The notes under the pieces: generated by a model
The model's input: the letters and a program-made list of their open reading frames with translations, nothing else
What the model was told of the DNA's origin: nothing
Database searches by the model: none
In this document: in pieces, positions 1,893 through 36,796 of the stretch
Numbering within the stretch: position 1 is the first letter of the stretch
How the letters are laid out: every line of letters starts with the position of its first letter
Source: Tillus elongatus
Lineage: Eukaryota; Arthropoda; Insecta; Coleoptera; Cleridae
Length of the DNA stretch: 64,000 bases
Assembly (NCBI GenBank): GCA_964006375.1
Contig: OZ023262.1
Span: 91,399,654-91,463,653, forward strand
Direction of reading: 5' to 3'
Program-made: the position numbers and the translations under genes

Positions 1893-1978
<86 letters not shown>
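1760..1978 (-). repeat. Dispersed repeat (copy 2), left half with (TA)n
   Basis: Similar to 830-1077: it has 'CTGGCTAACAAACTTGTC' and then (TA)n at 1896-1978. The right half resumes at 4141-4200 ('ACACAGAACTCCCTACTAGT', like 43881-43900), so the mariner at 1979-4046 inserted into the TA core of this copy. Confidence 0.7.
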
Positions 1979-1981
<3 letters not shown>

Positions 1982-2394
1982 GGTCGCTGATAAGTCTGGA
2001 AACGGTCGATTATCCGGGAAAATATACAAGGTGTCGAAAAAAGTTTTATACAAAAGTTTTTGGGTTCCTCAATGTCTACTAGGCGGTGATAATTTTATTT
2101 ATACAGGGTTGGTCATACAGGCGTGGCACACCAATATTAATTTTTTTAAATGGAACACCCTATATATTATTCGATATTTCAATCCTTCTCTTAATTTTGA
2201 GCAACATTTATGAGAAGCATAATGTACCTAAACTCAATCGTTTCCGGGTAAAAAAATAAATAAAAATAAACGCTACTGTTTTAAAAATCTATTGGATGAA
2301 GAACAAAAATAAATGAAAAGTAGAATATCTCTTGAAAACAATCTGTGAGTGTGAAAAGAACCGGTTGCGATGTTTTTAACATTGTTTGGAATCC
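1979..2394 (+). repeat. Left terminal inverted repeat of DD41D mariner
   Basis: Pairs with 3630-4046 along about 416 bp with few mismatches. Inside it, at 2104, lies a second end-like motif, TACAGGGTTGGTCATACAGG, preceded by TA. This looks like a transposon end within the TIR. Confidence 0.9.
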
Positions 2395-2536
2395 CAAGAT
2401 AAGATAAGATGCCCATAAGAAACGCAGTATTATTCTTTTGTTTTAAAATGTTTCCAGAACAACGAATGTCAAACATTCATTCAGTGTCAACAGTTTTGAA
2501 ACATTAGTAATTTAGTGTCAACAGTTTTTGTGCAAA

Positions 2537-3629
2537 ATGGCAAGTTTAAGTGAAACCGAACGTATCGAAATTTTAATGATGATAGGGTACGGTGATAGAA
2601 CACGAAGTTTTGCTCAAGTGGTGATTATGTTCAATGAGTTGCATCCTGAGCGGGAATCGATCTCCAAATCCACAGTTTCGAAAACTTTGCATCGTTTTCA
2701 CGAAACTGGCGGTATCAAGGATAAACCTAGAACTGGAAGGCCAGTAACCGTTACAAATGAAGAAAATTCTTTGAATGTAATATTGGATGTGGTGGAAAAT
2801 CCGAAAACTTCGGCACAGCAATTGGCTTTAAATCACAATATGAGTCGATATTCAATTCAAAAGATTACGAAGCGGGAAAAGTTCCGTCCATATAAAATTC
2901 ATTTATTGCAAGAACTGAGTGAAGACGATTTTGATCGCAGAATCGAGTTCTGTGAACTTATTATGGAGAAGTTACGCCAAAATTTTAACTTTGCCAACCA
3001 CATTTTGTTTTCCGACGAATCTACATTTTGTTTGAATGGACAAGTCAACCGACACAACTGTAGGTACTGGTCAGACGAAAACCCACATTGGATGGAACAA
3101 ATTCACACCCAAAGACCGCAAAAAGTAAATGTTTGGTGTGCTATTATTGGTGGACATATCATAGGACCTTATTTTATACACGGTAATTTGAACTCTGCTC
3201 GATATTTGACACTTTTGCAAGAATCAATTGTTCCAGACGTAAGTCGATTATTTCCGAACAATAACGACCCAAATCTACCAGCGGAAGAAATATGGTTTCA
3301 GCAGGATGGGGCACCCCCTCATTTTGGAATTGAGGTACGGGAATATCTGAATCAAACCTTTCCTGGCAGATGGATAGGGCGCAGGGGAACTATTGAATGG
3401 CCAGCTAGGTCTCCCGACATGACGCCGCTTGACTTTTTTTGTGGGGTCATGTAAAAAATTTAATTTACCAAAATAGACCGCAGAATATTGAAGAGTTGCA
3501 AGCAAGGATTGTGCATGAAATTAATAACATTCCTCAAAACGCTCTTGTAAATGCAGTGCAATGTTTTGTTAAGCGAATTCATTATTGTCAGGAGGTCAAT
3601 GGAGAACACTTTGAACATCTTATAAAATA

Positions 3630-3630
<1 letters not shown>
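2537..3630 (+). pseudogene. Mariner-type transposase (DD41D), one-base frameshift
   Basis: The transposase would bind the element's ends and catalyse cut-and-paste transposition at TA. I choose the ATG at 2537 (MASLSETERIEIL); the frame open upstream of it has no ATG. The N-terminal ~120 residues hold two helix-turn-helix DNA-binding regions with a GRP-like linker ('PRTGRPVTV'). The catalytic triad lies in 'FSDES', 'QQDGAPPH' and 'SPDMTPLDFF', with 41 residues between the second and third Asp. The frame breaks in a run of seven T at 3434-3440, just after the third Asp, where the sense of the downstream frame requires eight. The downstream frame continues to the stop at 3628-3630, which overlaps the right TIR. 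No other lesion is visible, so the copy is young. It is called a pseudogene because of the frameshift; an assembly homopolymer error is possible. Confidence 0.9.
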
Positions 3631-4143
<513 letters not shown>

Positions 4144-22104: not shown

Positions 22105-22543
22105 TGTTCCACATACAGACTTGGAGACTACTTCTCTGGCTTCACTGTTGGGTTTCGTTTCTGTGCAAACCAGGTCCGGCACACCTGGCGCCGTTTGGAC
22201 AGTACAGGGGCCCACCCTTCCCTTGACCGGCGTAGGGGGCTGCCCTATCATCCATTCGGAAAATGCTCAATCGTGTCAGCAGCACCGGGTAGCTCCGTAA
22301 CAGGGGGTTAGCTGCACGCTTCGGGTCGCCACAGCGTGGCCGCAGAGCCGCTCTTAACGGAATCAAGTCTTATCATGGATGAAGCGCCGGGGCGCGGTGG
22401 GGTGATCTCCCGTATCTATACGCTCACCAAACCTTAAGCACACCATCACACACAAAACCCAATTTAGCAACCATGTACAGTCAAGTAACAGAAGATGGTA
22501 ACGTGCCAAAGCCCTGCGAGGAGGCAAAAGGGCTTAGGGGGTA

Positions 22544-23261
22544 GTGGCTAATGTGTCCCCACTCCTGCGAGGGGCGGGGGCTGCCGAGATCCCGGCCGCT
22601 GGGGCTGGCCCTGTCCCCTCGGGAACGTCAGGTCCGGCGGGAAGAAGGGAAATGCAGGTGGTCATCAACTCCAACCGGGGGGATGGCGTAGTCCTGGCGG
22701 AAGAGGCGGAGCCAACAAGGAGGAGTCTGGTGGCGGGGATGTTGGACGCAATGTCGGTATCCGACGTGACGTTGCAGCTCCGCTTCCGTAACTTGGGGAT
22801 AGTTGTTCCAGGGTGGTTCTTGGTGACCGCCGAGGATGACAAGTCCCTGAGTTGGCGTGTCAACGGCTGGTCCGGGACGGCGGTGGGTGATCGCCTTCAG
22901 CGCCGTAAGGGCAGGGGGCGCTCCATGGCCGGTCCGGATCGGCTTTTGGTTCAGAAGTCAAGAGTTGGACCTACAGGATGTTGTCAGGATGCTTGCGCTC
23001 CAGAACCGCTCGCTCAATGTTGGGCAGTGGCGGCACCTGGAGACGGCAAGAGGACCTGGGGCATGGCGTCTGGTCTTCGCTGTGGGGTCCGGGGTGGCTC
23101 GCGAGCTGGACGGGCAAGGCTGGCGATTGTATTTCGAGTTGGTGACTCTGGGTGTAACCAGAGTTCCGACATGGAGTGCGGTCGCCTCCGCTCGGCCCGC
23201 GGCGGGCGCACGGATGGGCTCTGACCAGGGGAGGTCTCCATCCGGGCGGCGTCGCAATTAA
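22544..23261 (+). pseudogene. LINE ORF1 (Gag-like) remnant
   Basis: The first frame from about 22544 runs through 'SVSDVTLQLRFRNLGIVVPG'. After a frameshift near 22860-22960 the second frame gives 'DLQDVVRMLALQNRSLNVGQ' and 'RLYFELVTLGVTRVPTWS', ending at the TAA at 23259-23261. The repeated 'lhvgsWrh...W.lvf.v.....L' pattern resembles the DUF4780-type region found in ORF1 of insect LINEs (inference). It would bind the element's RNA. It has at least one frame break. Confidence 0.6.
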
Positions 23262-24883
23262 ATTCGCGGGGCTACTGCGGGTGAGTCAGATCAACCGACA
23301 GCATAGCCCAGATGCCACTGGGGAGCTGGCAAAGCTCCTCGCAGGCGGTCCAGGCGGCGTTGTGTTGATCCAAGAGCCTTATGCGTATAGGAAGCAAGTG
23401 AGGGGGCTTAGAGGAATCGACTTCAACATCCTAGTTGGTAGCGAAGCCGAGGAAGAACAACCAAGTTCATGCATACTGGCGTCAAGGGACCTAGACGTGA
23501 TGTCGCTGCCGCAGCTCGAGTCCAGGGACGCCACAGCAGCTGTCCTGGAGTATAGGGTAAGTAATACTAGTCTTAAGGTTATGATGTGTAGCCTTTACGT
23601 TCCTACGATCGACGGGGGCTGCCTCCGACGGGGGAATTGGTGCGTATCGTCGATTTCGCAAGGAAGCATGGGTTACAACTAATTATAGGCTGCGATGCCA
23701 ATTCGCACCACAGATTGTGGGGCAGCACAAATACCAACCCACGGGGTGAGGCTCTATTAGAGTATTTGGCTACAACGAACCTGGAGGTATTAAACAGAGG
23801 TACGGCTCCGACGTTTGTCAATCGTATCCGGCAGGAGGTGATCGACATCACGTTAGCGAGGAGAGGAATAACGGAGGATATATCTAGCTGGAGGGTGACG
23901 GAACACATATCAATGTCTGATCATCTTATGATCAGCTTTGAATTGGATGTGGACCGTGAGAGTCCTCCCCCCAGGAGAAATCCAAGGAAGACTGACTGGG
24001 ATGCCTACCTAATAGGCCTCGGTGGGTCGCCAAGGATCCCAGAGGGGAGAAGACTATCTATAGAGGCATTAGATAGCGAGGTCGAGGCCCTAGAAGGGAA
24101 AATAATGGCAGCCTACGAGGCCGCGTCACCACTTAGGGGGGAACCGTCCATCAAAGTTAGATGGTGGAACAGGGATCTCGTCGTACTACGCGGGCGGACT
24201 CGGAGGGCCTTAAATCGAGCCGTCCGAGAATCGGGTGAAGCGGCCTGGGAGGATTCTAGAACTGCCAGAAGGAAGTTTAAGAAGGAATTATGCTGGAGTA
24301 AGCGAGCTGGTTGGCGCGCGTACTGCGGGGAAGTCAATTCCCTGCCGGACGCAGCCAGGCTGGTTAGAGTGCTCAAACAGGAGTTAGGTAGTAATGTAGG
24401 ATCTTTAAAGAAACCGGACGGGAACTGGACAAGCACCGGTGAGGAGACCCTGCGTCATCTTGCCGAAGTTCACCGAGGGCGGTGGAGCCGTCACGGAGGC
24501 TGCCGAACCGGGCCGGTGGACAGTCCCAAATGCGGACTGGCAGCTGGTGGAGGGGGTGGTCACAAATGGCTCTATAACCTGGGCGGTGGGCAAGTTCGCT
24601 CCATTCAAATCCGCAGGCTGTGATGCGATTTTTCCGGCCTTGCACTAGAGGGGCCTGGATATACTGCTTCCCAACATAAGGGAGGTTTTTCTGGCCAGCC
24701 TGGCGTGGGGCTACGTCCCAAAGGCGTGGCGCCGGGTTAGGGGGGTCTTCATTTCCAAACCGGGAAGGGAGGACTACACGCTGGCCAAGGCGTACAGGCT
24801 AATCAGCCTAACATCCTTCCTACTCAAGGCATTGAAAAAGTCAGTAGATAGGTTTATGTTGGGAGGGATCCTCAAGGATCATC
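23245..24883 (+). pseudogene. LINE ORF2, endonuclease and first part of RT
   Basis: An apurinic-type endonuclease domain: 'VVLIQEPYAYRKQVRG' (about 23360), 'MCSLYVPTIDGG' (about 23585), then a frameshift near 23630, 'IIGCDANSHHRLWGS' (about 23680) and 'MSDHLMISFELD' (about 23913) with the terminal His. Behind a second frameshift near 24440, RT motifs begin: 'GCDAIFPAL' (about 24620), a stop codon at 24646, 'VRGVFISKPGREDY' and 'AYRLISLTSFLLKALKK' (about 24795). The sequence then meets the palindromic insert at 24884. No clear start ATG is visible. Confidence 0.85.
24878..24883. repeat. Target site duplication (left)
   Basis: ATCATC, repeated at 34753-34758. It lies within the LINE reverse transcriptase frame. 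Confidence 0.9.
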
Positions 24884-24904
24884 AGTAGGTATGGCGGCAC
24901 TTGG

Positions 24905-25130
24905 GACAGACAGTGACGTCACATTTCACATCTCGCCTTGTTATGTAACCTGCATTCCAAGGTCAATGACCTTCCAAGGTGATTGACCTGTTATTTCTAG
25001 GAAACTTTGGCCAGACAGTGACGTCACATTTCACATCTCGCCTTGTTATGTAACCTGCATTCCAAAGGTCAATGACCTGTCTAGGAAACTTTGACCAGAC
25101 AGTGACGTCACATGACTTGGGCCAGACAGT
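24905..25130. promoter_or_regulatory. Left subterminal array of hormone-response-type and CRE-type sites
   Basis: AGGTCAATGACCT, a perfect inverted repeat of AGGTCA with one spacer base, occurs at 24960-24972 and 25066-25078. A one-mismatch version (AGGTGATTGACCT) is at 24977-24989. TGACGTCA, the CREB/ATF palindrome, occurs at 24914-24921, 25019-25026 and 25103-25110. They sit in a ~105-bp repeated unit. IR-1 of AGGTCA is the classical ecdysone-receptor type of element in insects (established knowledge); function here is inference. Confidence 0.7.
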
Positions 25131-25195
25131 CACATGCAAACATTCCAAAGTGTCTAACCTATTACTTCAAATTATTCTAAGGATATTTTGAAAAA

Positions 25196-25275
25196 AACCA
25201 TTTGGAGCAGGTGAGTTTCGAACCCCGGGCACTCAGATGGGAGGCAACGATGCTAACCACTGTGCTAAGCAGACG
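25196..25275 (-). other. tRNA-like sequence in left arm
   Basis: On the minus strand it reads 'TTAGCACAGTGGTTAGCATC', like an RNA polymerase III A box, then 36 bases on 'GGGGTTCGAAACTC', like a B box. Spacing fits a tRNA or tRNA-derived SINE head. The D stem and T stem pair poorly, so it is unlikely to be a working tRNA gene. The right-arm copy is at about 34355-34430. Confidence 0.45.
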
Positions 25276-25479
25276 CTTATTAATTTACTGTTTTAGGCTG
25301 GTATATATACGACTTTTAATTAAAACAAACCATACATGTAACATACATAAAGTTTTTATTATTATTAGATAATTGAATGATTCACAAAATAAGAATTAAT
25401 ATGTTTTAATATTATATAAATGTGAGCTGGAAGATAAAGCCCTTCTTACATTTAATGAGGGAATATCAAATCTGTAAAA

Positions 25480-25840
25480 ATAACACACAGAGGTCGTTGG
25501 CAAACAAAAGAAGGAAGTTCAGAAACAAAATAGACAACAGGTTCAAATAGGAAACCAAACTTAAATATCGTAGAGACAATAGAGGTCGCTGGCAAAACAA
25601 AGAAGGAAGCTCAGAAACAAAATGGACAACAGGTTCAACTCTTAAAAATAGGAACTTTTTTAGCCTTATGTGTGGGCGCGGCAAGTAGTTGATTTTATTT
25701 TGAAAGAGATACAGGTTCGATTCCTGATATATGCTCCTTGATATGGTAGCGTCAAATACAAAGAGGTACTGAATAACTAAACAGTAAGCTTAGAAACAAT
25801 GGTTGGTTACAGGTTCAATTCCCTTCTAACCCCCCACGTG
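25480..25840 (+). repeat. Cluster of B-box-like GGTTC units (left arm)
   Basis: Four partly similar units: two begin 'AGAGGTCGYTGGCAAA', and all carry 'ACAGGTTCRA', at about 25540, 25630, 25710 and 25810. The third (ACAGGTTCGATTCCTGA) has a perfect T-arm-like hairpin. They are mirrored at about 33850-34150 except for the region deleted in the right arm. Possibly derived from tRNA genes; possibly only a local repeat. Confidence 0.4.
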
Positions 25841-25892
25841 TTTAGTGTCATGTTACTCGTCTAAGTAAGCAGAATTAAAAAAAAAAAAAATG

Positions 25893-27062
25893 GCGACTAA
25901 AATAAGATAAAAAACTTAAAACCCTTATCGCGGAAGATCCGTGAGATGTACGATAGAACCAATACATGCACGGTGTTAAGGAGGTCAAATCAAAAGTGGA
26001 ATATACAATAAAATGGCCACTTCCGGTCTAAACTTTAAATCGTTATATCTTTTCAACGGAAAGTGATAGAAAGGAACCGACTTCAAAAATGTATGTTTCC
26101 TAACAAGGTCTACAAGAAAATGAGATAAAAAACTTTAAACCCTTATCGCGGAAGATCCGTGAGATGTACGAGAGAACCAACACATGCACGGTGTTAAGGA
26201 GGCCAAACCAAATTGGAATATACAATAAAATGGCCACTTCCGGTCTAAACTTTAAATCGTTATATCTTTTGAATGGAAAGTGATAGAAAGGAACCGACTT
26301 TAAAAATATATCGTTTCATAACAAGGTCTACAAGAAACTGAGATAAAAAACTTCAAATCCTTATCGCGGAAGATCGGCGAGACGTACGATAGAACCAATA
26401 CATGCACGGTGTTAAGGAGGCCAAATCAAATTGGAATATACAATAAAATGGCCACTTCCGGTCTAAAATTTAAATCGTTATATCTTTTGAACGACAAGTG
26501 ATAGAAATGAACTGACTTTAAAAATATATCGTTTCATAACAAGCTCTACAAGAAAATGAGATAAAAAACTTTAAACCCTTATCGCGGAAGATCCGTGAGA
26601 TGTACGAGAGAACCAACACATGCACGGTGTTAAGGAGGCCAAATCAAATTGGAATATACAATAAAATGGCCACTTTCGGTCTAAACTTTAAATCGTTATA
26701 TCTTTTCAACGACAAGTGATAGAAAGGAACCGACTTTAAAAATATATCGTTTCATAACAAGCTCTACAAGAAACTGAGATAAAAAACTTTAAATCCTTAT
26801 CGCGGAAGATCGGTGAGATGTACGATAGAACCAATACATGCACGGTGTTAAGGAGGCCAAATCAAATTGGAATATACAATAAAATGGCCACTTCCGGTCT
26901 AAACTTTAAATCGTTATATCTTTTGAACGGAAAGTGATAGAAAGGAGCCGACTTCAAAAATGTATGTTCCGTAACAAGCTCTACAAGAAAATGAGATAAA
27001 AAACTTAAAACCCTTATCGCGGAAGATCCGTGAGATGTACTATAGAACCAATACATACACGC
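25893..27062. repeat. 218-bp tandem array (left arm)
   Basis: The motif CGCGGAAGATC recurs at about 25929, 26147, 26365, 26583, 26801 and 27018, a period of 218 bp (last step 217). That gives five full units and a partial one. Each unit also holds 'ATAAAATGGCCACTTCCGGT' and 'ACATGCACGGTGTTAAGGAG'. Neighbouring units differ by a few percent, and alternate units are most alike, pointing to a two-unit higher-order step. Confidence 0.92.
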
Positions 27063-27099
27063 TGTTCAGCAAACCAATAAAATCAATAAAAATGTTACT

Positions 27100-27282
27100 T
27101 CAGGTTGACACTTCCGGTATAGCCGTTCTTAGAGCTAGATACATGTGTGACACCTCAAAATCATCGTCTTGTTGAACAGAAGAAATATAATATTTAAGTA
27201 AGTCAGAACAAGCTGTGTTAACACCTAAAAACAACACACTCTCTCTTAGACTTAATGAAGTTACTTTCAGAGAAAATTTCAA
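27100..27282 (-). CDS. Hypothetical 60-residue protein (left arm)
   Basis: ATG-initiated frame reading away from the centre: 'MKFSLKVTSLSLRESVLFLG' then 'YISSVQQDDDFEVSHMY'. No domain is recognised. The identical copy lies at 32397-32579. Since both arms are near-identical, conservation between them says nothing about selection. It could be chance. Confidence 0.25.
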   Translation of the reverse strand: MKFSLKVTSLSLRESVLFLGVNTACSDLLKYYISSVQQDDDFEVSHMYLALRTAIPEVST

Positions 27283-27479
27283 CCATACCAGAAAGAACAG
27301 TAATCAATAGCGTATTTAAATGTTGACTACATCAAGTGATGCGTGCTACAGACAAATTTTAGTACACCCTCTTAGACTTATTGAAGTTGACGGTACAGGC
27401 AGCTGTCAAGCGTACCTAACAAACCAAAGTAAATATGTCTTGAAGAACAGTCTTCAATTGCCCTAAGCCAACACATCTC

Positions 27480-28156
27480 TATCATTTCAGAGTAATCTTA
27501 GCCATGTGACCAGTTAAACTAAGTATCTTGAAGTGTAGCTTTTATGTTTATGAGATATAAAATAACAAAACTAAAGAGTTAATTGTCTATTAAAACAACA
27601 AGCAGAAGGGGTTGACTTGGTACCTACAGCTGCTACATACTTGGTAAAAATGGGTGCCACTAGCATTTCAGAGTAATTTTAATCACACAACACTCTAACT
27701 AACTGTCTTGAGATGTGGCTTTATGTGTTAATGGGTGGAAATAACAAAACTAAAGAGTTGATTGTCTATTACAACTGTCAGCGAAAGAAGCATTTAGGTA
27801 GCCGGAATACCGATATCCTAAATATTTCAAGAGTAATCTTAGTCATACAACACTCTTAACTAACTGTCTTGAGATGTGGCTTTATGTGTCATTGGTTGGA
27901 AAATAAGAAAACTAAAGAGTTGATTGCCTATTACAACAGTCAGCTGAAGGAACATTTGGGTTATCGGAATACCGATGTGCCAAATGTTCCAACCGAAGGA
28001 GCCCACTTAGAGACATCTCCAGGGGCTCGGAATACCGATGCCCTAGAAGTGTCGGAAGCAACATTTCAATTAACACCAACAACCGCTAAATACTTGTTGG
28101 ACTTTAGTATGTTTGATATTAAATTCGATTTGCTACATAACCATTCATTTTTATGA
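27480..28156 (+). repeat. Three diverged ~180-bp coding-like modules (left arm)
   Basis: The block 'AACTAAAGAGTTGATTGTCT' with 'TGTCTTGAGATGTGGCTTTA' recurs about every 180 bp, near 27560, 27740 and 27910. Only the last is an open frame (27869-28156). The earlier ones look like decayed copies of the same module. They are mirrored in the right arm at about 31523-32200. Confidence 0.65.
27869..28156 (+). CDS. Hypothetical 95-residue protein (left arm)
   Basis: ATG-initiated frame reading toward the centre. It contains 'LIAYYNSQLKEHLGYRNTD' followed by 'EGAHLETSPGARNTDALEVS' and 'FQLTPTTAKYLL'. The second half is related to the next frame at 28377-28697 (EGAHLDSSPGSRNTG..LEVSEA), so a protein module is repeated within one arm with mainly conservative changes. 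That is weak support for coding. No known family recognised. Mirrored at 31523-31810 with three or so base differences. Confidence 0.4.
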   Translation: MRCGFMCHWLENKKTKELIAYYNSQLKEHLGYRNTDVPNVPTEGAHLETSPGARNTDALEVSEATFQLTPTTAKYLLDFSMFDIKFDLLHNHSFL

Positions 28157-28376
28157 AAAACTCAACAATTTTTATTTCTGCTTAAGCGAATTTAATCAGA
28201 AATATAGAACCAATCTTCAAGAAACCGAAGTAAAATGATAAGAACATTAAGAACAAACATTCCGATACCGAAGTGATCCTAAACACACCATATGATGCAA
28301 ATTCTGTAAATCTTTTTAACAGAAGAAAAACAGAAGTGAAACACCGTAAGACAAATAGAACCGACGTACATAACAG

Positions 28377-28697
28377 ATGTGTCTGAGGAGAAACGTATTC
28401 AGAACCTTATTGAGTTTACTAAGTTTTAAGTATACGAACATATCAGTCTATGTACCAACCAATACCGATACCCTTAATATTTCAACCAAAGGAGCCCACT
28501 TAGACTCATCTCCAGGGAGCCGGAATACTGGCCCCCTAGAAGTGTCGGAAGCAACATCTCAACTAACACCTACAACCGCTACATACTTGGTAAAAAATGG
28601 GTGGAGCTCAGATTGTAAACGACTTGATAGGTGGTACATATGTTTGCAAAGATTTCATTCTAAATTTAGCCTGTTGGATATCCAATCTTTTCTATGA
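28377..28697 (+). CDS. Hypothetical 106-residue protein (left arm)
   Basis: ATG-initiated frame. It shares the module 'TKGAHLDSSPGSRNTGPLEV' and 'SQLTPTTATYL' with the preceding frame, then diverges into 'WYICLQRFHSKFSLLDIQSF'. The following (CCAA)n run at 28706-28744 lies just beyond the stop. No known family recognised. Confidence 0.4.
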   Translation: MCLRRNVFRTLLSLLSFKYTNISVYVPTNTDTLNISTKGAHLDSSPGSRNTGPLEVSEATSQLTPTTATYLVKNGWSSDCKRLDRWYICLQRFHSKFSLLDIQSFL

Positions 28698-28705
28698 AAA
28701 GTGCA

Positions 28706-28744
28706 ACCAACCAACTAACCAACCACCCAACCAACCAACCAACG
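28706..28744 (+). repeat. (CCAA)n-like tetranucleotide tract (left arm)
   Basis: CAACCAACCAACTAACCAAC and continuing. Mirrored at about 30935-30973 as (TTGG)n. Confidence 0.85.
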
Positions 28745-28904
28745 TTGAGGGGCGTAGAAATAGCAAGCTATCTACAAGTGGACCCCTCTGAACCTATGAT
28801 GTTAATAATGGATTAAGAGATTGAATTGGTACGTGTTTATATTGAAGGCTTGCAAGCTACGTACAAGTGTCTGAATATATGATGGTAATGATGGGTTAAG
28901 ATAT

Positions 28905-29291
28905 TTAATTGACATGCATTAAAGGCTTAGCGGTTTTCACTTGAGTCATCGTCATTCGAAAACTATTAGAACGAAAACCAGGTCCTTTACTCTGGTATAT
29001 CTTACTCAGTAGGAACCAAATGTCTTCGAAAACAACATTCTTTGCTTTTCTGAAAGGCAAGTGAGCAGCCCCCTTGTCGAACCCCTCCGAGCTAAAGGTA
29101 AACCCCACTCTGTCTTCGGGATCGACATCATGGACTATATGACTCACAATATCTTTAATACGATCTTTGACCCACTTCTCTGGATCGTTGACATCGTCAG
29201 GTATATCTTGTAGTCTAAAGCATACGCTTCGTCTATCAAGTTTAAACTTCTTATTGGAGGTCACTGTATCTTCAAGTATTTGGAATGCCAT
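28905..29291 (-). CDS. 128-residue protein, possible DNA polymerase B N-terminal module (left arm)
   Basis: ATG at 29291, stop at 28905, reading outward from the centre. It is the best coding candidate in the palindrome: charged N-terminal part ('FKLDRRSVCFRLQDIPDDVN'), an acidic stretch, then 'LPFRKAKNVVFEDIWFLLSK' followed by 'IYQSKGPGFRSNSFRMTMTQ'. The pattern 'LPFR...N....I...L.KI.QS.....' reminds me of the N-terminal region of large arthropod Polinton-type DNA polymerase proteins, but I could not check this. It may be a first exon, since a weak donor-like AAGTGAAA follows codon 116. The unique promoter of the loop does not lie upstream of this copy. Confidence 0.5.
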   Translation of the reverse strand: MAFQILEDTVTSNKKFKLDRRSVCFRLQDIPDDVNDPEKWVKDRIKDIVSHIVHDVDPEDRVGFTFSSEGFDKGAAHLPFRKAKNVVFEDIWFLLSKIYQSKGPGFRSNSFRMTMTQVKTAKPLMHVN

Positions 29292-29379
29292 TGTTTCGTG
29301 CTACACAACTGACTGTGTTGGTTAAAGGACCGAAGTTTAGCCTCGTGTTTATTAAAGACTAAAGTTTAGCAGGTACTAT

Positions 29380-29637
29380 TTGTTTTCACCTTCACTGTTG
29401 GCTACCGACTGAACCTTAGCGGACGCTCCTCGTCTTAATATTCGACAAACAACACAGACAACACAACTTATTGTTTTCACCTTCACTGTTGGCTACCGAC
29501 TGAACCTTAGCGGACGCTCCTCGTCTTAATATTCGACAAACAACACAGACAACACAACTTATTGTTTTCACCTTCACTGTTGGTTAACGACTGAACCTTA
29601 GTGGACGCTTCACGTCTTAATATTCAACAGACAACAA
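29380..29637. repeat. 91-bp direct repeats at the arm/loop border
   Basis: The unit 'TGTTTTCACCTTCACTGTTG' starts at 29381, 29472 and 29563. The first two are near-identical and belong to the arm. The third is diverged ('GGTTAACGACTGAACC', 'TTCACGTC') and lies in the unique loop. The right arm has only two units (30120-30300). Confidence 0.85.
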
Positions 29638-29850
29638 CGACAGCTGTCATACAGCTGTCTGACATGACAGACAGCTGTCATACAGCTGTCTGACATGACA
29701 GACAGCTGTCATACAGCTGTCATACAGCTGTCTAAGACAGCTGTCCTGTTAACACAGCTGTCTAACACAGCTGTCTAACACAGCTGTCTAACACAGCTGT
29801 CTAACACAGCTGTCTAACACAGCTGTCTAACACAGCTGTCTAATAGGGCA
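29638..29850. repeat. CAGCTG (E-box) array
   Basis: About 15 copies of CAGCTG, mostly as ACAGCTGTC. First they are in ATACAGCTGTC/TGACATGACAGA spacing, then as a regular 14-bp unit TAACACAGCTGTC. CAGCTG is a bHLH-type binding site; here it may be only a simple-sequence expansion. Confidence 0.85.
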
Positions 29851-30058
29851 GACATATGTCTAACACATGTCTAGCAGATGTGTAACAGTCACTCTTTTGC
29901 GGAACATAAGCTGAATGTTTTTAAGTCAAACAAGAAGAAAACAATTTAAAACACATCTACGATGACCATGAGGCAGCCTACATGGACTTTGAACAATTTT
30001 TAAAAATATATGCGGCCAGGTTAGTTGATTAACCATCCAGGTCAGTCACAGCTGACGC

Positions 30059-30094
30059 TATAAATAAAAACGATGCTGGAAGCGAGTGACGTCA
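30059..30094 (+). promoter_or_regulatory. Candidate promoter: TATA box plus CRE-type site
   Basis: TATAAATA at 30059-30066 with TGACGTCA at 30087-30094. A transcript starting about 30 bp downstream of the TATA box would run into the right-arm 128-residue gene. Only one promoter exists, because the loop is not duplicated. Confidence 0.5.
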
Positions 30095-30387
30095 CAAGAA
30101 ACGGTGGTGCATGTGCCCAAGTTGTGTTGTCTGTGTTGTTTGTCGAATATTAAGACGAGGAGCGTCCGCTAAGGTTCAGTCGGTAGCCAACAGTGAAGGT
30201 GAAAACAATAAGTTGTGTTGTCTGTGTTGTTTGTCGAATATTAAGACGAGGAGCGTCCGCTAAGGTTCAGTCGGTAGCCAACAGTGAAGGTGAAAACAAA
30301 TAGTACCTGCTAAACTTTAGTCTTTAATAAACACGAGGCTAAACTTCGGTCCTTTAACCAACACAGTCAGTTGTGTAGCACGAAACA

Positions 30388-30774
30388 ATGGCATTCCAAA
30401 TACTTGAAGATACAGTGACCTCCAATAAGAAGTTTAAACTTGATAGACGAAGCGTATGCTTTAGACTACAAGATATACCTGACGATGTCAACGATCCAGA
30501 GAAGTGGGTCAAAGATCGTATTAAAGATATTGTGAGTCATATAGTCCATGATGTCGATCCCGAAGACAGAGTGGGGTTTACCTTTAGCTCGGAGGGGTTC
30601 GACAAGGGGGCTGCTCACTTGCCTTTCAGAAAAGCAAAGAATGTTGTTTTCGAAGACATTTGGTTCCTACTGAGTAAGATATACCAGAGTAAAGGACCTG
30701 GTTTTCGTTCTAATAGTTTTCGAATGACGATGACTCAAGTGAAAACCGCTAAGCCTTTAATGCATGTCAATTAA
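30388..30774 (+). CDS. 128-residue protein, possible DNA polymerase B N-terminal module (right arm)
   Basis: Identical translation to the left-arm copy, so both copies are intact. This one lies about 330 bp downstream of the TATAAATA box in the unique loop, so it is the copy likely to be transcribed. Its leader would cross two 91-bp direct repeats (30120-30300). The start ATG is preceded by 'CGAAACA', a good eukaryotic context (A at -3). No membrane segment or signal peptide. Function is inferred only. Confidence 0.55.
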   Translation: MAFQILEDTVTSNKKFKLDRRSVCFRLQDIPDDVNDPEKWVKDRIKDIVSHIVHDVDPEDRVGFTFSSEGFDKGAAHLPFRKAKNVVFEDIWFLLSKIYQSKGPGFRSNSFRMTMTQVKTAKPLMHVN

Positions 30775-30981
30775 ATATCTTAACCCATCATTACCATCAT
30801 ATATTCAGACACTTGTACGTAGCTTGCAAGCCTTCAATATAAACACGTACCAATTCAATCTCTTAATCCATTATTAACATCATAGGTTCAGAGGGGTCCA
30901 CTTGTAGATAGCTTGCTATCTCTACGCCCCTCAACGTTGGTTGGTTGGTTGGGTGGTTGGTTAGTTGGTTGGTTGCACTTT

Positions 30982-31302
30982 TCATAGAAAAGATTGGATA
31001 TCCAACAGGCTAAATTTAGAATGAAATCTTTGCAAACATATGTACCACCTATCAAGTCGTTTACAATCTGAGCTCCACCCATTTTTTACCAAGTATGTAG
31101 CGGTTGTAGGTGTTAGTTGAGATGTTGCTTCCGACACTTCTAGGGGGCCAGTATTCCGGCTCCCTGGAGATGAGTCTAAGTGGGCTCCTTTGGTTGAAAT
31201 ATTAAGGGTATCGGTATTGGTTGGTACATAGACTGATATGTTCGTATACTTAAAACTTAGTAAACTCAATAAGGTTCTGAATACGTTTCTCCTCAGACAC
31301 AT
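30982..31302 (-). CDS. Hypothetical 106-residue protein (right arm)
   Basis: Mirror of 28377-28697 with identical translation. It converges toward the palindrome centre and faces the 128-residue gene at 30388-30774. Confidence 0.4.
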   Translation of the reverse strand: MCLRRNVFRTLLSLLSFKYTNISVYVPTNTDTLNISTKGAHLDSSPGSRNTGPLEVSEATSQLTPTTATYLVKNGWSSDCKRLDRWYICLQRFHSKFSLLDIQSFL

Positions 31303-31522
31303 CTGTTATGTACGTCGGTTCTATTTGTCTTACGGTGTTTCACTTCTGTTTTTCTTCTGTTAAAAAGATTTACAGAATTTGCATCATATGGTGTGTTTAG
31401 GATCACTTCGGTATCGGAATGTTTGTTCTTAATGTTCTTATCATTTTACTTCGGTTTCTTGAAGATTGGTTCTATATTTCTGATTAAATTCGCTTAAGCA
31501 GAAATAAAAATTGTTGAGTTTT

Positions 31523-31810
31523 TCATAAAAATGAATGGTTATGTAGCAAATCGAATTTAATATCAAACATACTAAAGTCCAACAAGTATTTAGCGGTTGT
31601 TGGTGTTAATTGAAATATTGCTTCCGACACTTCTAGGGCATCGGTATTCCGAGCCCCTGGAGATGTCTCTAAGTGGGCTCCTTCGGTTGGAACATTTGGC
31701 ATATCGGTATTCCGATAACCCAAATGTTCCTTCAGCTGACTGTTGTAATAGGCAATCAACTCTTTAGTTTTCTTATTTTCCAACCAATGACACATAAAGC
31801 CACATCTCAA
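31523..31810 (-). CDS. Hypothetical 95-residue protein (right arm)
   Basis: Mirror of 27869-28156. It differs at two residues (Val to Met, Thr to Ile). Same repeated 'GAHLETSPGARNTDALEVS' module. Confidence 0.4.
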   Translation of the reverse strand: MRCGFMCHWLENKKTKELIAYYNSQLKEHLGYRNTDMPNVPTEGAHLETSPGARNTDALEVSEAIFQLTPTTAKYLLDFSMFDIKFDLLHNHSFL

Positions 31811-32396
31811 GACAGTTAGTTAAGAGTGTTGTATGACTAAGATTACTCTTGAAATATTTAGGATATCGGTATTCCGGCTACCTAAATGCTTCTTTCGCTG
31901 ACAGTTGTAATAGACAATCAACTCTTTAGTTTTGTTATTTCCACCCATTAACACATAAAGCCACATCTCAAGACAGTTAGTTAGAGTGTTGTGTGATTAA
32001 AATTACTCTGAAATGCTAGTGGCACCCATTTTTACCAAGTATGTAGCAGCTGTAGGTACCAAGTCAACCCCTTCTGCTTGTTGTTTTAATAGACAATTAA
32101 CTCTTTAGTTTTGTTATTTTATATCTCATAAACATAAAAGCTACACTTCAAGATACTTAGTTTAACTGGTCACATGGCTAAGATTACTCTGAAATGATAG
32201 AGATGTGTTGGCTTAGGGCAATTGAAGACTGTTCTTCAAGACATATTTACTTTGGTTTGTTAGGTACGCTTGACAGCTGCCTGTACCGTCAACTTCAATA
32301 AGTCTAAGAGGGTGTACTAAAATTTGTCTGTAGCACGCATCACTTGATGTAGTCAACATTTAAATACGCTATTGAATACTGTTCTTTCTGGTATGG

Positions 32397-32579
32397 TTGA
32401 AATTTTCTCTGAAAGTAACTTCATTAAGTCTAAGAGAGAGTGTGTTGTTTTTAGGTGTTAACACAGCTTGTTCTGACTTACTTAAATATTATATTTCTTC
32501 TGTTCAACAAGACGATGATTTTGAGGTGTCACACATGTATCTAGCTCTAAGAACGGCTATACCTGAAGTGTCAACCTGA
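32397..32579 (+). CDS. Hypothetical 60-residue protein (right arm)
   Basis: Identical translation to 27100-27282. No recognised function, and no promoter evident. Confidence 0.25.
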   Translation: MKFSLKVTSLSLRESVLFLGVNTACSDLLKYYISSVQQDDDFEVSHMYLALRTAIPEVST

Positions 32580-32619
32580 AGTAACATTTTTATTGATTTT
32601 ATTGGTTTGCTGAACAGCG

Positions 32620-33785
32620 TGTATGTATTGGTTCTATAGTACATCTCACGGATCTTCCGCGATAAGGGTTTTAAGTTTTTTATCTCATTTTCTTGTAGAG
32701 CTTGTTACGAAACATACATTTTTGAAGTCGGCTCCTTTCTATCACTTTCCGTTCAAAAGATATAACGATTTAAAGTTTAGACCGGAAGTGGCCATTTTAT
32801 TGTATATTCCAATTTGATTTGGCCTCCTTAACACCGTGCATGTATTGGTTCTATCGTACATCTCACCGATTTTCCGCGATAAGGATTTAAAGTTTTTTAT
32901 CTCAGTTTCTTGTAGAGCTTGTTATGAAACGATATATTTTTAAAGTCGGTTCCTTTCTATCACTTGTCGTTGAAAAGATATAACGATTTAAAGTTTAGAC
33001 CGGAAGTGGCCATTTTATTGTATATTCCAATTTGATTTGGCCTCCTTAACACCGTGCATGTGTTGGTTCTCTCGTACATCTCACGGATCTTCCGCGATAA
33101 GGGTTTAAAGTTTTTTATCTCATTTTCTTGTAGAGCTTGTTATGAAACGATATATTTTTAAAGTCAGTTCATTTCTATCACTTGTCGTTCAAAAGATATA
33201 ACGATTTAAATTTTAGACCGGAAGTGGCCATTTTATTGTATATTCCAATTTGATTTGGCCTCCTTAACACCGTGCATGTATTGGTTCTATCGTACGTCTC
33301 GCCGATCTTCCGCGATAAGGATTTGAAGTTTTTTATCTCAGTTTCTTGTAGACCTTGTTATGAAACGATATATTTTTAAAGTCGGTTCCTTTCTATCACT
33401 TTCCATTCAAAAGATATAACGATTTAAAGTTTAGACCGGAAGTGGCCATTTTATTGTATATTCCAATTTGGTTTGGCCTCCTTAACACCGTGCATGTGTT
33501 GGTTCTCTCGTACATCTCACGGATCTTCCGCGATAAGGGTTTAAAGTTTTTATCTCATTTTCTTGTAGACCTTGTTAGGAAACATACATTTTTGAAGTCG
33601 GTTCCTTTCTATCACTTTCCGTTGAAAAGATATAACGATTTAAAGTTTAGACCGGAAGTGGCCATTTTATTGTATATTCCACTTTTGATTTGACCTCCTT
33701 AACACCGTGCATGTATTGGTTCTATCGTACATCTCACGGATCTTCCGCGATAAGGGTTTTAAGTTTTTTATCTTATTTTAGTCGC
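32620..33785. repeat. 218-bp tandem array (right arm)
   Basis: Mirror of the left-arm array with the same unit order. It spans the same five-plus units in reverse complement. Confidence 0.92.
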
Positions 33786-34354
33786 CATTTTTTTTTTTTA
33801 TTCTGCTTACTTAGACGAGTAACATGACACTAAACACGTGGGGGGTTAGAAGGGAATTGAACCTGTAACCAACCATTGTTTCTAAGCTTACTGTTTAGTT
33901 ATTCAGTACCTCTTTGTATTTGACGCTACCATATCAAGGAGCATATATCAGGAATCGAACCTGTATCTCTTTCAAAATAAAATCAACTACTTGCCGCGTC
34001 CACCTGTTGTCCATTTTGTTTCTGAGCTTCCTTCTTTGTTTTGCCAGCGACCTCTATTGTCTCTACGATATTTAAGTTTGGTTTCCTATTTGAACCTGTT
34101 GTCTATTTTGTTTCTGAACTTCCTTCTTTTGTTTGCCAACGACCTCTGTGTGTTATTTTTACAGATTTGATATTCCCTCATTAAATGTAAGAAGGGCTTT
34201 ATCTTCCAGCTCACATTTATATAATATTAAAACATATTAATTCTTATTTTGTGAATCATTCAATTGTCTAATAATAATAAAAACTTTATGTATGTTACAT
34301 GTATGGTTTGTTTTAATTAAAAGTCGTATATATACCAGCCTAAAACAGTAAATT

Positions 34355-34430
34355 AATAAGCGTCTGCTTAGCACAGTGGTTAGCATCGTTGCCTCCCATG
34401 TGAGTGCCCGGGGTTCGAAACTCACCTGCT
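34355..34430 (+). other. tRNA-like sequence in right arm
   Basis: Same A-box-like and B-box-like motifs as the left-arm copy, on the plus strand, with one base different in the middle (CCCATGTG here, CCCATCTG there). Confidence 0.45.
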
Positions 34431-34506
34431 CCAAATGGTTTTTTTCAAAATATCCTTAGAATAATTTGAAGTAATAGGTTAGACACTTTGGAATGTTTGC
34501 ATGTGA

Positions 34507-34731
34507 CTGTCTGGCCCAAGTCATGTGACGTCACTGTCTGGCCAAAGTTTCCTACACAGGTCATTGACCTTTGGAATGCAGGTTACATAACAAGGCGAGA
34601 TGTGAAATGTTACGTCACTGTCTGGCCAAAGTTTCCTAGAAATAACAGGTCAATCACCTTGGAAGGTCATTGACCTTGGAATGCAGGTTACATAACAAGG
34701 CGAGATGTGAAATGTGACGTCACTGTCTGTC
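34507..34731. promoter_or_regulatory. Right subterminal array of hormone-response-type and CRE-type sites
   Basis: Mirror of the left array. IR-1 sites AGGTCATTGACCT are at 34558-34570 and 34664-34676, with an imperfect one at 34647-34659. TGACGTCA is at 34526-34533 and 34715-34722. The middle one is mutated to TTACGTCA at 34610-34617, so the arms have begun to differ. Confidence 0.7.
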
Positions 34732-34752
34732 CCAAGTGCCGCCATACCTACT

Positions 34753-34758
34753 ATCATC
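34753..34758. repeat. Target site duplication (right)
   Basis: ATCATC, the partner of 24878-24883. Confidence 0.9.
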
Positions 34759-36796
34759 CCTTCCACAAAGGTCAGCACGCGTACCAGAGGGGGAAATCGA
34801 CGGAGACGGCGCTTCACGCTGTGACGCGGAAGGTGGAAAGGGCCCTACACTACGGGGAGAGCACATTAGCTGTGTTGTTCGATGTGGAGGGGGCCTTTGA
34901 TAAGGCAAGGACGGATACGGTCTGTGCCGCCCTACAGGAGAGGGGAACGCCGAGGTCCCTAATAAGCTGGGTGGCGAGCATGCTGGAGGACAGGATAGTT
35001 TCGCTGACCTTGAGGGGTCGAGGGCTGGACGTTGGGGTGACAAGCGGCTGTCCTCAGGGCAGCTGCCTTTCGCCTCATCTGTGGTGTCTGGTCATGGGCG
35101 GCCTCTTGGAGCGATTCTCTGAGAATGGCTGCTACGCCCAGGCGTACGCTGATGATGGGCTGGTCTTAGTCACCGGCAAATTCCTCGGAGTGATCTGTGA
35201 GTGTATGCAGGCTGCCTGTAGCATAATCGAAAGGTGGTGTGGTGAGCAGGGACTCTCCGTAAACCCGGCGAAGACGGAGATGACCCTTTTACCAAGAAGA
35301 GGAAGGTAGAGGGGTTCAGGGCGCCCGTGACGTTTGGAAAACCTTTAGCTTTAGTGCGGGAGGCCAAATATCTGGGGGTGATCCTGAACCTCAAACTAAA
35401 ATGGGGGTTGCAAATAGAACGAGTAGTGAGGAAGGGAGTAGCGACCCTCTGGCAGCTGCGTCGCGTGATAGGGAGGACTTGGAGACTTAATCCTCGGATC
35501 CTTCATTGGATCTACACTGCGATCGTCAGGCCGAGAATTCTCTATGGGGCGTTGGTCTGGTGGTGTGGTGTGAACCAAACTACCAGCAGGAAGCTGGCCA
35601 AACTCCAAAGGATGGCAACCCTGGGTATCATAGGCGATATGAGGACGACACCCTCAGCCGCGCTAGAGGTCCTGTTGATGCTGCCACCGCTTCTCATCTG
35701 TATCAGAAGGAAGGCTATGGCGTCGCATCTTAGAATGCGGGACTCAGGAAACTGGCGCGGAGAGGGAGCAGTAATAGAGCATGGAAGAGTCGCCAAGGAG
35801 GTGGAAAAGGAAATTCCGATTTCCGTCATAAAGGTGCGGGATGCCGAGGACGATATTAGGTTGACTAGGCCATACACCCTCAGGATCCCCAGTAGGGATC
35901 AGTGGAGGGAAAATGAGGTTGCATTCCAGCCCGCAAGCCTGGTCTGTTTCACCGACGGATCGCGGCTGGAGGACCAACAATCCTCCGGGAAAGGAATATA
36001 CATCGAGGGCCTGGGGGTTCGCGAGAGCTATGCTCTTGGGGCATATACCACGGCATTCGAAACAGAGGTGTATGCTATCCTGTCTGTGGACAATAGACAG
36101 GATGCGAAGAGGAGTCCCGAGAAATCTGTGTATATCTGCTCGGATAGCCAGGCGGTCCTCCGGGCAGTCTGCGCGGTCAGAATCAGGTCAACCCTGGTTC
36201 GGGAGTGCGCTGACGCCCTCAGAGGACTAGGCAGGACGAAGGAGGTGCAACTGGTGTGGATTCCGGGACACTGTGGTGTAGCGGGGAATGAGCTGGCGAA
36301 TAATCTCGCAAGACTCGGTTCCCGGCGACCGTTCTGTGGCCCGGAGCCTGGAATAGGCATAAGTAGGAAGACAGTCTCTGTCGCCTCAGACAGGTCGACC
36401 GAGGAAGCAATGGAGAGGCACTGGGAGTCGGTTGGTGGCTGCAGGCAGGCGAGGGATTTTGTGGAGGGGCCGGACAGAGATAAAGCTGTCTGGCTACTCG
36501 AAAGGAGTCGAGCTACGCTTCGCGGCATCCTTGGGGTGCTGACAGGCCACTGCGCCCTTAGAAGACACCTCACATTGATAGGCGTAGAGAGGGATCCCAT
36601 TTGCCAGGAATGCGGCGAGGATGAAGAAACGTCCTACTACTACCTGTGTGAATGCGAGGTTTTTGGGAGTCTTGGAGCAGAATTGTTCGGATCGAGGACT
36701 CTGCAGAGGAATCAGGTAATTACCGTCCAATTGAAGACCGTCACGGCCTTCATCTCGAGGTCGAGGCGGTTTGGCGACGGAACCGAGGAAGAGTAG
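34759..36796 (+). pseudogene. LINE ORF2, RT core, RNase H and C-terminus
   Basis: The RT continues directly after the insert with 'KGQHAYQRGKSTETALHAV' (about 34770), 'LFDVEGAFDKARTDTVCAAL' (34877), 'TSGCPQGSCLSPHLWCLVMG' (35042) and the catalytic 'AYADDG' (35142-35158). A frameshift at about 35305 follows. The next frame (35327-36796) gives 'AKYLGVILNLKLKWG', an RNase H domain with 'CFTDGSRLEDQ' (about 35943), 'FETEVYAIL', 'CSDSQAV' and 'VWIPGHCGVAGNELANN' (about 36256), and a C-terminal 'ICQECGEDEETSYYYLCECE' (about 36600) in which the usual His of the Cys-His knuckle is Tyr. This order fits LOA-like or R1-like LINEs. I cannot decide the clade without a tree. Confidence 0.87.

Follow-up and report, generated by a model that had tools for sequence, protein, structure and literature searches.

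A near-perfect palindrome in the beetle Tillus elongatus: a probable non-autonomous Polinton derivative with a terminal-protein-like gene

Polintons (Mavericks) are marked by 6-bp target duplications and AG termini. Those of insects (adintovirus-type) measure 15–20 kb according to PMC4028283. A 2024 preprint (PMC11071308) places Polintons at the base of several groups of eukaryotic DNA viruses and, from structure prediction, identifies the N-terminal part of their protein-primed DNA polymerase (pPolB) as a terminal-protein (TP) domain with the role of primer; it also describes a polinton of Stylophora pistillata, and adenoviruses, in which the TP gene is separate from that of pPolB. Here we describe a palindromic element in the clerid beetle Tillus elongatus, lying in a window of 64,000 nucleotides (the whole stretch analysed: assembly GCA_964006375.1, contig OZ023262.1, positions 91,399,654 to 91,463,653; coordinates below are those of the window), which is probably a non-autonomous derivative of a Polinton with a TP-like gene of its own.

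The element resembles insect Polintons in its AG...CT ends, its 6-bp duplication, its terminal inverted repeats and its possession of the N-terminal domain of pPolB. A further likeness, judged by title, is to a shortened form of the kalilo linear plasmid, which reportedly (Vierula and Bertrand, 1992, cited in PMC11071308) forms hairpin and duplex DNA: it too derives by deletion from a linear replicon with protein priming, although that replicon is a mitochondrial plasmid of a fungus. Very long inverted arms are found also in the Foldback and Galileo elements of Drosophila, in which we know of no replication protein. These share with the present element the combination of long arms and tandem repeats and, according to PMC3573991, belong to other superfamilies; the longest arms there are those of non-autonomous copies, and the longest of Galileo reach about 1.26 kb. 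The split-TP polinton and the adenoviruses, as PMC11071308 presents them, share with it the separate TP gene, but encode pPolB too, whereas the element is palindromic and without pPolB.

Self-BLASTN of the window, followed by alignment of the arms, recovers two inverted copies, 24884–29560 (forward, 4,677 bp, beginning AGTAGG) and 30119–34752 (reverse, 4,634 bp, ending CCTACT), around a loop of 558 bp; the whole measures 9,869 bp. Globally aligned, the arms show 4,622 matches and 14 mismatches (nine transitions and five transversions) in 4,636 aligned bases, together with gaps of 39, 3 and 1 bp, the extra bases lying in the left arm each time. The palindrome ends in AG...CT, and self-comparison and flank joining place a copy of ATCATC on either side (24878–24883 and 34753–34758). 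When 150 bp of each flank are joined through a single ATCATC, one open frame of a long interspersed nuclear element (LINE) results, ...RFMLGGILKDHPFHKGQHAYQRGKSTETALH..., and because the joined flanks restore this single frame we take the insertion and its target duplication to be real. By Pfam the flanking frames encode endonuclease, reverse transcriptase and RNase H: the endonuclease lies in the 5′ part of the LINE (22538–24883) and the other two in its 3′ part (34759–36796), both on the forward strand and with approximate boundaries. The palindrome and its insertion are thus confirmed, and an earlier note on this DNA, which had given the coordinates, arm lengths, loop (29561–30118), termini and duplication and had claimed that the frame of a LINE reverse transcriptase was interrupted, proved exact in its positions and right about the frame, which opens once the element and one ATCATC are removed. 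The G+C content of the element is 37.5%, against 56–58% for the interrupted LINE. Among the inverted pairs listed outside the element the best-scoring has arms of 500 bp that are 98% alike; two longer pairs among those matches (601 and 623 columns) are just 78% alike, with tens of kb between their members.

The longest open frame of the right arm runs for 131 codons from stop to stop and for 128 from its ATG (30388–30774, forward strand). The left arm holds the mirror copy of this open reading frame (ORF; 28905–29291, reverse strand), and with no differences between the two copies the arm-to-arm comparison is unusable as a test of selection. A search among candidates of about 440–1,400 aa returned two matches to the ORF, each carrying DNA_pol_B_2: P0002 (1,114 aa; 71% identity over 119 aa, E 1.2e-47) and P0003 (627 aa; 58% identity, E 2.4e-39). 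The match spans Met1 to residue 119 of both polymerases. P0002 tops a list of 62 proteins with E values no higher than 1e-5; of these, 34 are 1,201–1,274 aa long, and those members of the list that bear an organism name come from beetles, a fly and a leafhopper. This insect affinity, together with the insect-like transposons of the window, points by itself to an arthropod genome. Judged by this similarity, the ORF is homologous to the N-terminal terminal-protein domain (D1) of insect-type pPolB, and appears as a stand-alone, intact form of it.

Other searches returned little. Pfam gave no match for the 128-aa product, NCBIfam none for five peptides and Rfam none at gathering score, and no tRNA was found. 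In viral contigs the ORF yielded no pattern match, the terminal 21 bases none, the pPolB alignment 67 and the alignment of stand-alone proteins 533, of which none was confirmed; the same was true of 270 pattern matches in prokaryotic genome contigs, and phage records gave none in one search and two records at E 0.2 in another. A separate observation concerns the polymerases: positions 697–775 of the insect-type pPolB profile match the Vsr mismatch endonuclease (1odg, E 3.7e-5), and one member of the family, P0014, is named Vsr mismatch endonuclease by its source.

Elsewhere in the window P0002 and P0003 match no better than expected by chance (E 0.96 or worse), leaving of the pPolB gene only its first 119 residues as a separate ORF. 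A six-frame Pfam scan of 24884–29800, which covers the left arm and reaches into the loop, found no integrase (RVE), ATPase, protease or capsid and no transposase family; the right arm is covered through its near-identity to the left. With its polymerase body and integrase missing and its length of 9.9 kb below the 15–20 kb of insect Polintons, the element is not an autonomous Polinton; it differs from these also in that its arms make up nearly its whole length and its TP domain stands alone. The same scan detected a piece of KilA-N (PF04383, profile 70–103) at 28621–28722 on the forward strand (E 1e-6 when the single frame was searched; 29.0 bits against a cut-off of 23.8), the mirror of which, derived by hand from the arm alignment, lies at about 30957–31058 on the other strand. 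A weak second piece (profile 35–57; E 0.062, below cut-off) lies upstream at 27887–27955, also on the forward strand, and from this arrangement – the end of the domain preceded by a faint earlier portion – we regard the KilA-N gene as broken and decayed. DUF3627 (E 0.0043, below cut-off) and three weaker, chance-like families complete the scan. The earlier note had assigned the element to Polintons from its ends and duplication length, and had read it as a deleted, head-to-head form; the first proposal is now backed by the ORF with the N-terminal domain of pPolB and the second finds support, whereas the intact TP-like ORF and its two short relatives had gone unnoticed.

These short relatives emerged from a search limited to proteins of about 70–225 aa, which returned two candidates in all (123 and 124 aa; 74% and 62% identity). 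Both, P0064 and P0065, have their ends no more than a few residues away from that of the window ORF, with tails that by eye, in a comparison of protein sequences only, are unlike the corresponding stretch of the polymerase. In all three an invariant Gln-Ser is followed by Lys; in 44 of 48 rows the residue there is Asn. The tree of these 48 rows comprised the window ORF and 47 of 64 fetched proteins other than P0001, the 17 dropped having no alignment over at least 90 domain residues at the score set. The three short proteins form one side of a branch with support of 89/75; this branch is present in 91% of 200 bootstrap trees, with none of 500 shuffles as low. The grouping is suggestive but falls short of proof. 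Differences between the ORF and P0064 (30 of 118 columns) fall on columns that are variable in polymerases (p 0.002), variability being taken from 43 rows, from which the three short proteins, the long-branched P0048 and P0054 (the same sequence as P0020) were excluded. As the differences are so concentrated, the ORF has been subject to some constraint in its evolution, and a part of this constraint may predate its standing alone.

A model of the fold suggests a candidate priming residue. In a terminal protein this residue should be Ser or Tyr, located in the loop that leads from helix 2 to the last strand and close to a Gly or Pro; the candidate here is Ser101, although it is the last residue of the modelled helix 88–101, and in the window ORF Gly103, Pro104 and Gly105 follow it. 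Ser101 is present in 48 of 48 rows, while Ser108 and Ser110, also in the loop, vary among rows. The alignment used for the fold combined the window ORF with 44 of 62 collected proteins. A Polinton-type terminal protein should have an LF/PAD-like fold. In Foldseek searches with the modelled fold no entry reached E 0.001: the best rows of the PDB were Csy3/Cas7 (E 0.027 to 0.04), and in BFVD an Orpheovirus protein came first (E 0.006) and the mavirus polymerase fifth (E 0.024). In a second structure comparison the rows listed are, to judge by their titles, presumably all Y-family polymerases apart from the designed protein 7dkk; they represent many entries of few enzymes, and several cover more than the little finger.

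On balance we favour, as rather likely, the interpretation that the element is a non-autonomous, self-complementary Polinton derivative with its own TP-like gene, dependent on a full Polinton; if it functions at all, it would do so as a defective or satellite Polinton. An ancestor in which the TP domain was already a separate gene would have lost its middle and one end, and the two ends would have been made alike by fold-back during strand-displacement, protein-primed synthesis, or by the joining of like ends. The ORF would still yield a TP for priming at either end, with pPolB and integrase supplied by a full Polinton; the displaced strand could then pair with itself along 4.6 kb, rebuilding a duplex origin, and such self-pairing would also keep the arms alike.

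Several observations weigh against this interpretation. The length of the ORF is within chance, being reached in 14 of 200 mononucleotide shuffles; the column effect is weaker for pairs that include P0065 (p 0.04 and 0.02), and four polymerase control pairs give p 0.0013 or less, a level that none of the three short-protein pairs attains; one copy of the element is known. It is possible, moreover, that the ORF is the stub of a fused polymerase: a recent internal deletion of a Polinton with fused pPolB may have left the first 119 codons by chance, making the ORF functionless and the element a dead or passively moved foldback. Deletions that leave stubs are, as a matter of general knowledge, common in transposons, and the arms are too similar for decay to show. 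Such a remnant would nonetheless have to be reconciled with two other short proteins that end near the same residue, have tails unlike pPolB and group with the ORF, with differences that respect the variable columns, and with a KilA-N gene that is broken in the very arm where the ORF is intact; on this evidence we think it unlikely.

A different doubt touches only the origin of the palindrome. In place of protein-primed fold-back, two broken Polinton genomes may have been joined end to end in inverted orientation, or a chromosomal break repaired; an unequal head-to-head union gives like arms and some unpaired sequence that is part of one arm only. Fold-back and the joining of two like ends produce the same anatomy, whereas like ends enclosed by a single target duplication, at a site that is intact once emptied, are not easily explained by a chromosomal origin. 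Fold-back is a plausible origin, and we judge these other routes somewhat unlikely. That the element belongs to another foldback type (Foldback/Mutator or Galileo/P) and acquired a pPolB fragment is far less credible: long arms with internal tandem repeats do recall Foldback and Galileo, but the 6-bp duplication and AG ends fit the Polinton signature, the sole intact recognisable gene is that of a Polinton replication protein, and no transposase family was detected by Pfam in the six frames of 24884–29800. Fold-back reads exist, and might in principle mimic a palindrome in an assembly; yet here the arms are not identical (14 mismatched bases and three gaps), the limits of the palindrome coincide with the duplication, and the sequences on either side together make up a single LINE, so that we attach almost no weight to an artefact.

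The unique loop (29561–30118) contains a diverged third unit of a 91-bp repeat, an array of the octamer CAGCTGTC, a TATA box and a CRE site. The octamer array (29641–29840) holds 15 copies, these being 15 of the 17 on the forward strand of the window, with one more in the left arm. The 91-bp repeats lie to the left of the loop at 29380–29636, where units 1 and 2 are identical and unit 3 diverged, and to its right, as two units, at 30119–30299. Larger tandem arrays of a 218-bp unit, 5.4 copies in each arm, occupy 25899–27066 and 32613–33779. Within the loop TATAAATA (30059–30066, forward strand), a consensus match only, is oriented toward the right-arm ORF, and no TATAAA was found on the opposite strand of the loop; since the TATA box is on a single strand, it is a promoter candidate for one of the two ORF copies. 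Both it and the CRE site at 30087 lie upstream of the right-arm copy. At 29925–30032 (forward strand) the peptide VKQEENNLKHIYDDHEAAYMDFEQFLKIYAARLVD precedes a stop and resembles the tail of an upstream gene, of which it is the putative C-terminal end reading toward the TATA box; it has no family match in Pfam or NCBIfam. Judged by the TATA box and this peptide, the loop would go with the right arm; judged by the in-register 91-bp units, with the left. The first 22 bases of the diverged third unit are identical, as would happen by chance in about 4% of cases given nine mismatches in 79; such a stretch might suit pairing at the turn, a point that counts for little.

The terminal 300 bp (24884–25183, forward strand) contain two IR-1 sites, AGGTCAATGACCT, and three CRE sites, TGACGTCA, against shuffle means of 0.0005 and 0.007, for motifs picked after viewing the sequence. 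We take these to be ecdysone-type (nuclear-receptor-type) and cAMP-type response sites, respectively. All four perfect IR-1 copies in the window (24960, 25066, 34558 and 34664) and all six CRE copies (24914, 25019, 25103, 30087, 34526 and 34715) are inside the element and, except for the one CRE site in the loop, sit in its ends. A more speculative extension, and one we consider doubtful, is that of a satellite class of Polintons: self-complementary replicons with protein priming, two origins of their own and a primer protein as sole gene. In the manner of defective-interfering viruses, these would exploit full Polintons for polymerase, integrase and perhaps also capsid, the response motifs of the ends timing expression.

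An element with little left but a separate, intact TP domain would provide evidence from nature for independent action of this domain, as well as a small test bed; the palindrome would likewise offer a genomic trace of fold-back replication, as predicted for the displaced strand of a protein-primed replicon. Among the open-licence papers listed in our literature searches, in part only the best-ranked matches (20 of 44, 20 of 33 and 10 of 672), none on Polintons that are palindromic or carry TP alone appeared.

Two other features of the window deserve mention. A second inverted-repeat element, at 1896–4129, has arms of about 500 bp that are 98.2% alike, AT arrays at its outer ends and an internal frame (2516–3454) that we take to encode a mariner-like transposase. 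Twenty arrays of AT/TA dinucleotides, 65–147 bp long with 90–100% matches, are spread across 208–63170 (for example at 4047, 46513 and 57996).

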